This document shows, in pieces, positions 4,978 through 25,004 of a DNA stretch of 26,370 nucleotides. A model generated the notes under the pieces. That model was not told where the DNA came from. It saw only the letters and a list, made by a program, of their open reading frames with translations, and ran no database searches. The position numbers and the translations under genes were made by a program. Each line of letters begins with the position of its first letter. Positions within the stretch are counted from its first letter, which is position 1. Origin of the DNA: a bacterium. GTDB lineage: Bacteria > DYJV01 > JALVYZ01. The stretch lies in contig JALVYZ010000305.1 in NCBI GenBank assembly GCA_027037705.1, positions 1-26,370 on the forward strand. Direction: 5' to 3'.

Positions 4978-5040
4978 AAAGGAGTGAATGTTGAAGGAGA
5001 GAGTGGTTGTTAACCTTCCTCCTTCTGCTTTCTAACTTTT
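4974..5040 (+). terminator. Nested hairpin terminator at the stop codon
   Basis: Inverted arms nest from outside in: TTAGAAAG (4974-4981) with CTTTCTAA (5028-5035), GAAGGAG (4993-4999) with CTCCTTC (5019-5025), and GGTT with AACC around a GTT loop (5005-5015). A T-rich run follows (CTTTTAATAAATTTTT). The outer arm includes the stop codon at 4975-4977. The position between convergent genes fits a terminator for the plus-strand gene. Confidence 0.6.
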
Positions 5041-5063
5041 AATAAATTTTTAAAGTTTACCCA

Positions 5064-5105
5064 CTACGAAACACGCATCACGAATCCCTGACCACAATTC
5101 ACGAA
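5064..5105. repeat. Heptamer array of the ACGAA family
   Basis: Six in-phase heptads: CTACGAA, ACACGCA, TCACGAA, TCCCTGA, CCACAAT, TCACGAA. The last one contains the complement of the miaA stop codon (5099-5101), so the array runs into the end of that gene. The same family recurs at 14344-14371 (inverted) and 20322-20370. Confidence 0.75.
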
Positions 5106-14293: not shown

Positions 14294-14404
14294 GTTATTG
14301 GTGTTAGTGTTAGTAATTTTGTTATTAATTGTTTAATAATTGTGATTCGTAATTCGTAGTTCGTGATTCATGTTTTTCTTTATCCTTCACCCTTCACCCT
14401 TTAA
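14293..14404. repeat. Hexamer and two heptamer word arrays between queH and cooC
   Basis: The 113-nt gap is largely arrays. 14293-14316 is TTAGTG-type hexads (inverse of the CTAACA family). 14344-14371 is four heptads GATTCGT, AATTCGT, AGTTCGT, GATTCAT (inverse of the ACGAA family). 14384-14404 is CCTTCAC, CCTTCAC, CCTTTAA. The first array touches the queH start codon and the last ends 3 nt before the cooC stop. Confidence 0.8.
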
Positions 14405-14406
14405 AT

Positions 14407-20039: not shown

Positions 20040-20383
20040 CAGGAGTCAGGAGTGCAGAGTCGTTAGTTGAAAGTTAGTTGATGTTTTTGATGTTAGTTAA
20101 TGTTAGTATAAAAAAATTTTGGAGTGCGGAGTCTGGAGTCAGGAGTAATAAAAAGTGAAGATGAGTAAAAGCGAAAATGCGAAGATGCGGAATTAGGTAA
20201 ATGCGAAAAAGCGTAGATGAGTAGATGTGAAAATAAAAAATAAGATATATTCTAATTGACGTATGATTCAAATTCGCATTTACACATATACGCATTTACG
20301 CATTAACACATATATGTAATAACGAGTTACGAACTACGAATCACGAACTACGAACTACGAACCACGAATTAAAAGGAGCCAAA
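20040..20383. repeat. 344-nt gap made almost wholly of word arrays
   Basis: No gene is seen here. In order: heptads CAGGAGT, CAGGAGT, GCAGAGT, CGTTAGT (20040-20067) starting one base after the CDF stop; 9-10-nt TTAGTTGATG-type words (20075-20108); GGAGTNN heptads (20121-20148); ten octads such as CGAAAATG and CGTAGATG (20156-20235); an AT-rich core (20244-20271); inverted octads TTACGCAT (20272-20311); and seven exact-period ACGAACT heptads (20322-20370). The ppiC-like ribosome site AAAAGGAG follows directly. Confidence 0.85.
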
Positions 20384-21214
20384 ATGATTAGAATTTTAAT
20401 TATGGTGTTTTTGCTTTTAAATTTTATATCCTGTGATTTCATTGATGATATTAATCCTAATGTTATAGCAAAAGTTGATGATAAAAAAATTTACTTTGAT
20501 AAATTAAAAAAAGAAATAATTGCTGAAAATTCAGATGTAAAATTAACAAAACCTTTAATTTTATTTTATATTAATGAAAAAATTAATGAAATAATCTTGG
20601 AAGATGAATTTAAAAAATTACATATGAAGATTACAAAAGAAGATATAAAAAAGCAGTCAGATATTGTTAAACTTAACCCAGAATTGTTAAAAAAAAGAAT
20701 TATTTTTGAAAAAGTAAAAAGTTATGTAGTTAGAAAAATAACATATCCATCAGATGAAGAATGTTTAAAGTATTATAAAAATCACATAAATGAGTTTAAT
20801 CATTATGATAAAGTTAGATTAAGATATATTGTTAGCGAAAATGAAAAAGTTTGTAAAACTGTTTACAACAAATTAAAAAAATTAAAAGATTTTGATAAAG
20901 TTATAAGAAAATTAAAATTAAATTATGCTTATAATGGAATTCTAAAAGTAAAAGATATTCCAGAAGATGTTAAAGAGCAAATAGATTATACACAAAAGAA
21001 TTCATACTGGTTAGTAAAATCAAAGGATAGATGTTATGTCATTGAATGTATAGAATATATGAAAAATGTCCCTGTAAGTTTTAAAGAAGCAAAATATTTA
21101 ATTAGAGAAACATTATTAATGCAAAGGCAAACAGAATTATTTAAATTATGGCTAAAGAAACAGAGAGAAAAAAGAAAAATTAAAATTTATTACAATAAAA
21201 TTAAAATTGATTAG
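20384..21214 (+). CDS. PpiC/SurA-like peptidyl-prolyl isomerase lipoprotein
   Basis: A 276-aa predicted lipoprotein. The N-terminus MIRILIMVFLLLNFISC ends in a lipobox-like Cys17. A SurA-N-like helical part follows (about 25-115: ANVDDKKIYFDKLKKEI-like start, FYINEKINEIILEDEFKKLHMKITKEDIK), then YPSDEECLKYYKNHINEF, which leads into a degraded parvulin domain (about 140-235, KVRLRYIVSENEKVC...YWLVKSKDRCYVIECIEYMKN), and a helical tail (FKEAKYLIRETLLMQRQTELFKLWLKKQRE) as in PrsA/SurA. The parvulin core lacks clear active-site residues, so a chaperone role is likelier than isomerase. It has its own AAAAGGAG site and abuts the HgdB-like gene. Confidence 0.8.
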   Translation: MIRILIMVFLLLNFISCDFIDDINPNVIAKVDDKKIYFDKLKKEIIAENSDVKLTKPLILFYINEKINEIILEDEFKKLHMKITKEDIKKQSDIVKLNPELLKKRIIFEKVKSYVVRKITYPSDEECLKYYKNHINEFNHYDKVRLRYIVSENEKVCKTVYNKLKKLKDFDKVIRKLKLNYAYNGILKVKDIPEDVKEQIDYTQKNSYWLVKSKDRCYVIECIEYMKNVPVSFKEAKYLIRETLLMQRQTELFKLWLKKQREKRKIKIYYNKIKID

Positions 21215-22228: not shown

Positions 22229-22895
22229 TGTTTCTCAGAAAAATGATGCAATTGATTTTGTAAAATTACTTAAAGATGAAGTTGAGATTTTTAAAATAGG
22301 GCTTGAGCTTTTCTGCAAATATGGACCTGAAATATTAAATGATATTTCAAAATTGAATGTTAAAATTTTTCTTGATTTAAAACTTCATGACATCCCAAAT
22401 ACTGTTTACGGGGCTGTGAAAAATCTTTTAAATTTTAATCCTTTTTTCATAACAATTCATCTTGAAGAGTATGAAAAATTTAGAAAATTTGTATTTGATA
22501 AAACAAATTTTAAGGGATTTTTGGGAGTAACATGGTTAACTTCATTAGATGAAAATTCGCTTCACTTTTTAACTGAAAATAAAAATATGTCTGTAATAGA
22601 TTTTGTTTTAAAAAAAGCGGAGATTTATTATAAATCAGGTTGTTGTGGGATAGTGTGTTCAGCTCATGAAGCAAAAAAGGTAAAAGAAAAGTTTGGAAAT
22701 AAATTGAAAATAGTGTGTCCAGGAATTAGACTGTCTGAGTCCTCATCTGATGATCAGGAAAGGATTATGACTCCAGAAAAAGCAATAAAAAATGGAGCTG
22801 ATTTTCTTGTAATTGGAAGGCCAATTAGAGAAGCTAATGATCCATTGGGGATATGTAGGAAAATAAATGCAGAAATTAATGAAAATTTAGGTTGA
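22203..22895 (+). CDS. pyrF: Orotidine-5'-phosphate decarboxylase
   Basis: Converts OMP to UMP in pyrimidine synthesis. The 230-aa TIM-barrel protein has FPLDV at the first strand (Asp9), the catalytic FLDLKLHDIPNT with Asp58-Lys60-Asp63, VCPGIR (169-174) and the phosphate-gripper FLVIGRPI (199-206). The start overlaps the HgdB-like gene in another frame, with a GAGG element before it. Its last codon and stop are supplied by the first GGTTGAA heptad of the following array, so the true ancestral C-terminus may have been different. Confidence 0.96.
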   Translation: MKRIIFPLDVSQKNDAIDFVKLLKDEVEIFKIGLELFCKYGPEILNDISKLNVKIFLDLKLHDIPNTVYGAVKNLLNFNPFFITIHLEEYEKFRKFVFDKTNFKGFLGVTWLTSLDENSLHFLTENKNMSVIDFVLKKAEIYYKSGCCGIVCSAHEAKKVKEKFGNKLKIVCPGIRLSESSSDDQERIMTPEKAIKNGADFLVIGRPIREANDPLGICRKINAEINENLG

Positions 22896-23115
22896 AGGTT
22901 GAAGGCTGAAGGAAAATAGTTTGGAGTCGGGAGTGCGGAGTCGGGAGTAATGAAAAAATGAAAATGCGTAGAAGCGAAAATGCGAAGATGCGGAATTATG
23001 TAAATGCGAAAAAACGTAGATGAGTAGATGCGAAAATAAAAAAATAAGATATATTCTAATTGATGCATGATTCAATTACGCATATACACATATACGCATT
23101 TACCCATCTACGATT
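22890..23115. repeat. Word arrays and second copy of the octamer compound unit
   Basis: The 244-nt gap holds GGTTGAA, GGTTGAA, GGCTGAA (22890-22910), GGAGTCG, GGAGTGC, GGAGTCG, GGAGTAA (22923-22950), nine octads from CGTAGAAG (22967) to CGAAAATA (23038), a core nearly identical to that at 20244-20271, and inverted octads TTACGCAT, ATACACAT, ATACGCAT, TTACCCAT, CTACGATT (23076-23115). The unit 22923-23107 aligns with 20121-20303 with scattered substitutions. No gene is seen in it. Confidence 0.88.
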
Positions 23116-23139
23116 ATAAAATATAAAGGAGGATATAAA

Positions 23140-24798: not shown

Positions 24799-24806
24799 TT
24801 AAATAA

Positions 24807-24989
24807 GGCTGAAGGTGGAAGGTGTCAGCAAAGAACTTAAAATTTTAGGTGCTCTATGGAGCTGAAGTTTGGAGACAATTATGTTATTTGATATTAGTTA
24901 GATGTTAGTTGAGGTTAATTAATGTGAACAATGAACTGTGAATAGTGAATAGAAAGAAGCTAACACTATCACTAACACCAACACTAAAA
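24807..24989. repeat. Mixed word arrays between ilvD and the DUF89 gene
   Basis: The 206-nt gap contains GGCTGAA, GGTGGAA, GGTGTCA heptads (24807-24827), decads of the GTTAGTTGAG type (24893-24922), heptads GTGAACA, ATGAACT, GTGAATA, GTGAATA (24924-24951), and hexads CTAACA, CTATCA, CTAACA, CCAACA, CTAAAA (24960-24989). The stretch 24828-24892 shows nothing clear. The DUF89 ribosome site follows the last hexad. Confidence 0.8.
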
Positions 24990-25004
24990 TAAAGGAAGGA
25001 TTTT

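Follow-up and report, generated by a model that had tools for sequence, protein, structure and literature searches.

Degenerate heptamer-like repeats occur in many bacteria, and their origin is unexplained. The GGGAATC or (GGGANTN)n repeats of Xanthomonas and the GGGGA(T/C)T repeats of Nostoc are heptamers of constant length in which some positions are fixed and others vary; about 90% of them are intergenic, mostly between co-directional genes and near the upstream gene. Many of the Xanthomonas heptamers lie in convergent (G towards C) pairs, and they are not found at the same genes in two species (PMC4692102). The STRR heptamers of cyanobacteria and the TAACTGA repeats of Beggiatoaceae, likewise short, tandem and intergenic, are scattered unevenly over the phyla and for the most part repeat one word perfectly; TAACTGA has a single inverted set, and heptamers related to it seldom occur as repeats (PMC4679880). 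REP/BIME and REPIN with RAYT are dispersed intergenic palindromic elements often located in operons and built on a fixed palindrome of 20-40 nt (PMC3116915, PMC3733652). The word arrays of the bacterial draft genome described here (G000) form a pattern that is real and genome-wide, is related to the little-studied heptamer repeats of Xanthomonas and cyanobacteria, and is not explained by simple copying slips. Within the open-access PMC literature the GGGANTN heptamers of Xanthomonas are the nearest known system, and their definition applies to G000 in part, through a fixed-length unit with constant and variable positions (the A7 family) and convergent paired arrays in 29 of 30 gaps. Unlike Xanthomonas and Nostoc with their one word family, G000 has at least eight families of 6, 7, 8 and 10 nt that share gaps, a polarity that extends across families, and an octamer element that is dispersed and has a conserved AT-rich centre; nor are its words GGGANTN or of the G-quadruplex type, since G runs reach at most two or three and four G3 runs do not occur. 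The short intergenic tandem heptamers are a likeness to STRR and TAACTGA, from which G000 differs in that these are largely perfect, and dispersal with palindromic arms in operons is a likeness to REP and REPIN, in place of whose fixed palindrome the G000 arms consist of tandem words of variable number.

The window, the whole stretch of 26,370 nt that was analysed, is the entire contig C305 of G000, a draft of 2.05 Mb in 496 contigs that is 93% complete and has a GC content of about 27% in the contigs read. Approximately 455 kb of this genome was sampled, containing 167 gaps and 28.9 kb of intergenic DNA, with genes called by a simple codon model and with some contigs picked for carrying a repeat hit. 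As controls we used 39 gaps of G001, the sole genome of the same order that was compared, and DNA of other bacteria amounting to about 1.1 Mb, with 513 gaps and 80 loci. An assembly artefact is ruled out by the recurrence of the arrays on dozens of contigs and by their consistent placement relative to genes.

The principal gap, 20040-20383, is a mosaic of such words. Directly 3' of the TAG stop of a cation-efflux gene (whose protein, used as a query against the genome contigs, matched only distant relatives), plus-strand A7 heptamers (CAGGAGT CAGGAGT ...) occupy 20040-20062, and they are followed on the same G-rich strand by T10 decamer words (GTTAGTTGAT-like, found by TRF) at 20062-20107 and by A7 heptamers reading GGAGTGC GGAGTCT GGAGTCA GGAGT at 20120-20146. 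The G-arm of the B8 octamers (ATGnGnnn) then runs from 20161 to 20232 on the plus strand as nine 8-nt units, placed in strict phase by a phase table and including the degenerate unit TTAGGTAA. The AT-rich conserved centre of the dispersed element (20233-20272, plus strand) contains the core ATATATTCTAATTGA at 20245-20259 and leads to the minus-strand B8 C-arm (CGCATTTA ACACATAT ACGCATTT ACGCATTA ...) at 20273-20311. Seven E7 heptamers (ACGAANN) fill 20322-20370 on the C strand (minus), and a spacer with the ribosome-binding site (20371-20383, plus strand) separates them from the gene at 20384. This downstream gene (20384-21214) is SurA-like/rotamase and of lipoprotein type, with a SurA_N_2 match below the Pfam cut-off. 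The seven heptamers of the form ACGANNN without a slip are, when checked on the sequence, exactly as the original prediction had described them, and the presence of several unit lengths within one gap was borne out, with A7, T10, B8 and E7 side by side. Its statement that almost every base falls in an array holds for most of the gap; the exception is the AT-rich non-word core of about 40 nt (approximately 20233-20272).

Related words had also been listed for five other gaps of the window, and they are seen in all of them, at 14294-14406, 22896-23139, 24799-25004, 1-69 and 5064-5105. The gap 22896-23139 (plus strand) carries a second copy of the composite element at 89% identity, with D7 words from 22889 that overlap the end of pyrF, A7 at 22923-22948, a B8 G-arm at 22949-23037, the core at 23049-23063 and a B8 C-arm at 23077-23112. 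Between 24799 and 25004 (plus strand), the left side has D7, T10 and H7 G-words and the right side C6 words (CTAACA), and in the gap between tandem minus-strand genes at 14294-14406 (minus strand), C6 and E7 G-words lie left of TTCACCC C-words. Two gaps are without strand assignment: the contig-end gap 1-69, with CCTATAG and CTAACAC C-words, and the gap of convergent genes at 4978-5098, with weak ACGAA-like C-words (5064-5105).

The periodicity of these gaps was measured by autocorrelation, expressed as z against dinucleotide shuffles. The gap 20040-20383 gives z=+6.3 at lag 7, +4.4 at lag 8 and +2.9 at lag 10, with +5.4, +4.3 and +5.8 at the longer lags 14, 16 and 24, and lag 6 is weak within it (z=+1.6). 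Across the 167 gaps, counting arrays with a GC content of at least 30% plus AT-rich arrays against shuffled means, we found 9 arrays of period 6 (0.2 in shuffles), 33 of period 7 (0.1), 35 of period 8 (0.3), 16 of period 10 (0.4) and 6 of period 12 (0.2); none has period 4 or 5, and one has period 9. On contigs not chosen by a repeat hit, lags 6, 7 and 10 are enriched (z +3.6, +5.9 and +3.8) and lag 8 reaches +2.2. The genome-wide enrichment of intergenic lags 6, 7, 8 and 10 beyond shuffles that had been proposed was thus confirmed when the test was run. In 421 kb of predicted coding DNA there are 58 arrays of period 5-12, mostly of period 9 and 12 as is expected from codons. Almost no word arrays occur in the 39 G001 gaps and the 513 gaps of other bacteria, the exception being one period-10 array in G001 (L132:1020-1240; TATTAGCGTT TATTCGCGGT ...), which looks like the U10 family and suggests that one family may predate the rest.

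Each period corresponds to separate families, and the unit consists of a constant core of about 5 nt plus a variable rest. Read on the G-rich strand, the families are A7 (GGAGT-NN), B8 (ATGnG-NNN), C6 (TTAGTG/TTGGTG), D7 (GAAGG-NN), E7 (TTCGT-NN, reverse complement ACGAA-NN), T10 (GTTAGTT-NNN), U10 (GTWATT-NNNN) and minor ones. In A7, positions 1-5 have an entropy of 0.07-0.43 bits and positions 6 and 7 of 1.73 and 1.97 bits; anchoring on the core inflates this conservation figure, and anchor-free detection gives the same pattern. Five homologous copies of the octamer core, compared with no anchors, differ in 48% of pairs at unit phase 4 and in 0% at phases 1-2. Adjacent units are not copies of each other: of 88 pairs of A7 neighbours 3 are identical, where random draw gives 8.4%, and of 144 pairs of B8 neighbours 5 are, where it gives 5.2%, so that the identical consecutive units of an exact tandem SSR show no excess over random draw in either family, and the variable letters of A7 neighbours match 37 times where shuffled units give 52.5+-6.2. 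Since neighbouring units are no more alike than random draws, recent slippage is argued against. Unit similarity is equal at lags 8, 16 and 24 in contigs with hits, so that distant units are as alike as near ones. In a genome of 27% GC, the variable positions of A7 are rich in G and C (C 51% and G 23% at position 6), which indicates that they are not at mutational equilibrium and have not decayed to background. It is possible that the arrays are old and saturated, with their cores under constraint. The original interpretation is supported in part, namely for a fixed unit length with loose sequence that is intergenic, genome-wide and not due to simple slippage; the rewriting of a template word, which it also suggested, is a possibility. 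Fold-back copying of one arm from the other was rejected, because between paired arms the variable letters show no more complementarity than when arms are swapped.

That interpretation had overlooked that G-words and C-words converge, that an 8-mer element is dispersed, that arrays are tied to stop codons where genes are co-directional, and that units divide into constant core and variable rest. Among 30 gaps with words in both orientations, all G-strand words precede all C-strand words in 29 and none is fully reversed; G-before-C pairs outnumber the reverse by 51:3 (Fisher P=4e-14 by gap halves). The polarity is alike in tandem-plus and tandem-minus gaps and also holds between different families (57:2). 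In 23 of 39 gaps, where 13.3 would be expected, one family occupies both sides, the remainder having differing families, and the long gaps L200 and L190 are readable as two G-C elements in succession. In independent IMG/VR contigs totalling approximately 0.95 Mb, which were retrieved with patterns of the words or of the backward words, opposite-type neighbouring arrays are G-before-C in 13 cases and reversed in 2, one of the latter being a 9-nt array that may be coding. Because the polarity is present in these contigs as well, it can be tested at once across thousands of genomes. Any model for the origin of such repeats is now bound by three constraints: a G-to-C polarity across families, units of constant core and variable rest whose neighbours show no excess of identity, and a preference for co-directional spacers.

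Co-directional spacers are preferred: 47 of 121 tandem gaps have arrays, as against 5 of 38 divergent gaps and 0 of 8 convergent ones (P=0.003 and 0.027). Arrays start at a median of about 5 nt past the stop codon and end about 20 nt ahead of the next start, so that the spacers of tandem genes are filled from stop codon to ribosome-binding site. TAA stops are rarer beside arrays (19 of 53) than elsewhere (42 of 68; P=0.006), because words enter the 3' ends of genes and supply TAG or TGA. At 22889-22912 of the window and at L200:1647-1674, the word arrays provide the final codons of genes along with the stop, so that these C-termini are partly made of words. One orthologous gene pair has a spacer of 116 bp in G000 (L181:12478-12593) and of about 17 bp in G001, where the absence of the array could be a loss since the ortholog protein is only about 50% identical. 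At the same gene junctions, paralogous transport operons of G000 have either a spacer of about 0-6 bp or 190-250 bp filled with words. The comparison covers this one ortholog and several paralogous operons.

The middle of the principal gap (approximately 20113-20320) belongs to a dispersed element. Five copies share 79-100% identity over about 150 nt, the others, 79-89% identical to it, lying at 22913-23107 of the window and on contigs C453, C357 and C338. The AT-rich centre GTATATTCTAATTGA with its context, used as a query, finds at least eight copies in G000, a count that leaves out single centre hits on C33, C103 and C289 in other contexts; the dispersed homologous copies expected of a MITE are thus present for the octamer core. 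What varies between the copies is the number of whole octamers in each arm (2 to about 10 units), which fits the unit-locked expansion proposed originally, or equally contraction, and the flanks of the copies vary as well, with T10, D7 or A7 on the left and E7 or U10 on the right. In all 7 tandem gaps that carry it, the octamer element is sense-oriented with the genes; for the variable letters of its arms it matters which strand is sense (P=5e-6) but not how the gap lies on the map (P=0.08).

At the RNA level, same-family gaps fold well below shuffles (median z -3.5) but other gaps do not (-0.5), and the sense strand is slightly more stable than the antisense strand (P=0.04). Where both arms are of the octamer or the GGAGT family, the transcript is predicted to form a long hairpin in which helices of roughly 5 bp alternate with 2x2 or 3x3 loops. 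Mixed-family gaps keep the order without folding, which means that hairpin pairing alone does not explain polarity. The two main gaps have no Rho-independent terminator (a GC-rich hairpin and then a T run), and no Rfam 15 covariance model matched up to E=1. The conserved core has a TTGACG-like hexamer, and a promoter was rejected as its -10 score is no better than in shuffled sequence (P=0.21, with one of eight sequences read at a wrong TTGA site). Searches for proteins covered G000 at 93% completeness with many short contigs outside the search: the absence of a Y1 match (PF01797) there speaks against identity with REP/RAYT, the absence of RVT_1 against retron- or DGR-type reverse-transcriptase mechanisms, and the absence of Ku against Ku-type end joining. 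A phage origin was likewise dropped, with no match in phage records.

Several explanations of these arrays can be weighed. The words and their families, the polarity, the position at stop codons, the tandem-gap preference, the dispersed copies, the whole-unit differences and the one short-spacer ortholog are observations. The explanation that we favour, with middling confidence, is that small non-autonomous insertion elements made of words, which are copied among operon spacers and remodelled by whole units, together compose the gap. Each element would consist of G-strand words, an AT-rich centre and C-strand words, and would enter a short spacer of co-directional genes at or just before the upstream stop codon, where elements could adjoin or nest; the octamer element in the middle of 20040-20383 would have been copied in this way to at least eight gaps. 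After insertion the arms would gain or lose whole units, core letters changing slowly and variable letters fast, so that neighbours would not stay identical. We infer that spread may proceed by transposition or gene conversion with enzymes encoded elsewhere, that selection would act against reverse orientation or placement between divergent promoters, and that identical neighbouring units may be lost because perfect repeats and perfect palindromes are unstable. Polarity, dispersed core, stop-codon position, the short-spacer ortholog together with the paralogous operons, whole-unit changes and same-family folding all argue for insertion. Against it count the lack of a Y1/RAYT-type transposase or reverse transcriptase match in the part of G000 searched, a target-site duplication and sharp outer boundary that are undefined for the candidate element, mixed gaps with different families per side, unlike a classical element with terminal inverted repeats, the distance of the ortholog, whose short spacer could reflect loss, and the partly hit-selected contig sample. 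If plain replication slippage of heptamer or octamer seeds, followed by point mutation, had made the arrays, they would be degenerate simple-sequence repeats of the ordinary kind and would need neither an element nor a special mechanism. Many bacteria have an excess of heptamer repeats, for which slippage of the polymerase has been put forward (Mrazek et al. 2007, as cited in PMC4679880 and PMC4692102), near-perfect arrays of such words exist on unrelated contigs, and copies differ by whole units. Slippage is nevertheless already disfavoured and, we think, unlikely: it predicts neither the G-before-C order nor dispersed homologous cores, and both the missing identity excess between A7 and B8 neighbours and the GC-rich variable positions of A7 run counter to it.

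A function in RNA offers a different account, in which the arrays are retained for the long hairpins that they form in mRNA, with internal loops at regular intervals, and these hairpins protect operon transcripts or serve in their processing or modulation, cores being paired and variable letters lying in loops. The tandem-gap preference, the consistent sense orientation of the octamer element and the dependence of its variable letters on the sense strand agree with such a role, as do the strong folding of same-family gaps, the greater stability of the sense strand and the position-specific conservation between copies; yet mixed-family gaps are polar without folding, most tandem gaps have no array, no Rfam match, terminator or supported promoter was found, and the two arms are no more complementary in their variable letters than swapped arms, so this account too is improbable. 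Polarity across unrelated families would also be produced by two-ended strand synthesis, in which each 3' end at a break is extended with G-rich words by a polymerase before the ends are joined; the product would read G-words and then C-words for any combination of families, as in a head-to-head telomere fusion or an interstitial telomeric repeat. This predicts the 57:2 order where the two sides carry unrelated families, arms that are independent of each other, and a polarity that recurs in unrelated organisms, as in the 13:2 count and the convergent Xanthomonas pairs (PMC4692102). The sense orientation and dispersal of the octamer core are left unexplained by it, and neither a reverse transcriptase nor Ku was matched in G000. 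No bacterial enzyme is known to add such words, and we regard two-ended synthesis as very unlikely for G000. The broader proposal, that prokaryotes of unrelated lineages share an unrecognised process generating fixed-length degenerate words in obligatory G-first, C-last order, whether through a telomere-like healing of breaks in which both 3' ends receive G-words or through an insertion process of equivalent dyad symmetry, is speculative and in our view distinctly doubtful.

A vocabulary of words shared across phyla was also considered, and by backward-word controls it is weak beyond the general abundance of heptamer repeats. In IMG/VR contigs, stretches of the words and of the same words read backwards number 31:14 for E7, 17:21 for A7 and 16:6 for B8, and the A7 word occurs in 10 of the non-own genomes surveyed against 5 for its backward control. 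Two IMG/VR contigs (L281, L285; GC about 60%) contain convergent octamer arrays of GCGTNNAT/ACGCNNNN, much like the B8 element. In L242, L259 (G171) and L249 (G261), TCAGGAG heptamers of about 21-28 nt seem, by eye, to lie in frame within coding genes of unrelated genomes, like an inserted peptide repeat. On the haloarchaeal plasmid pNMAG01 of Natrialba magadii (L329, approximately 216050-216320), intergenic GAGCTAC/ACGAACT, CCTGGAA/CCTGAAT and ACGAATC heptamers adjoin one another.
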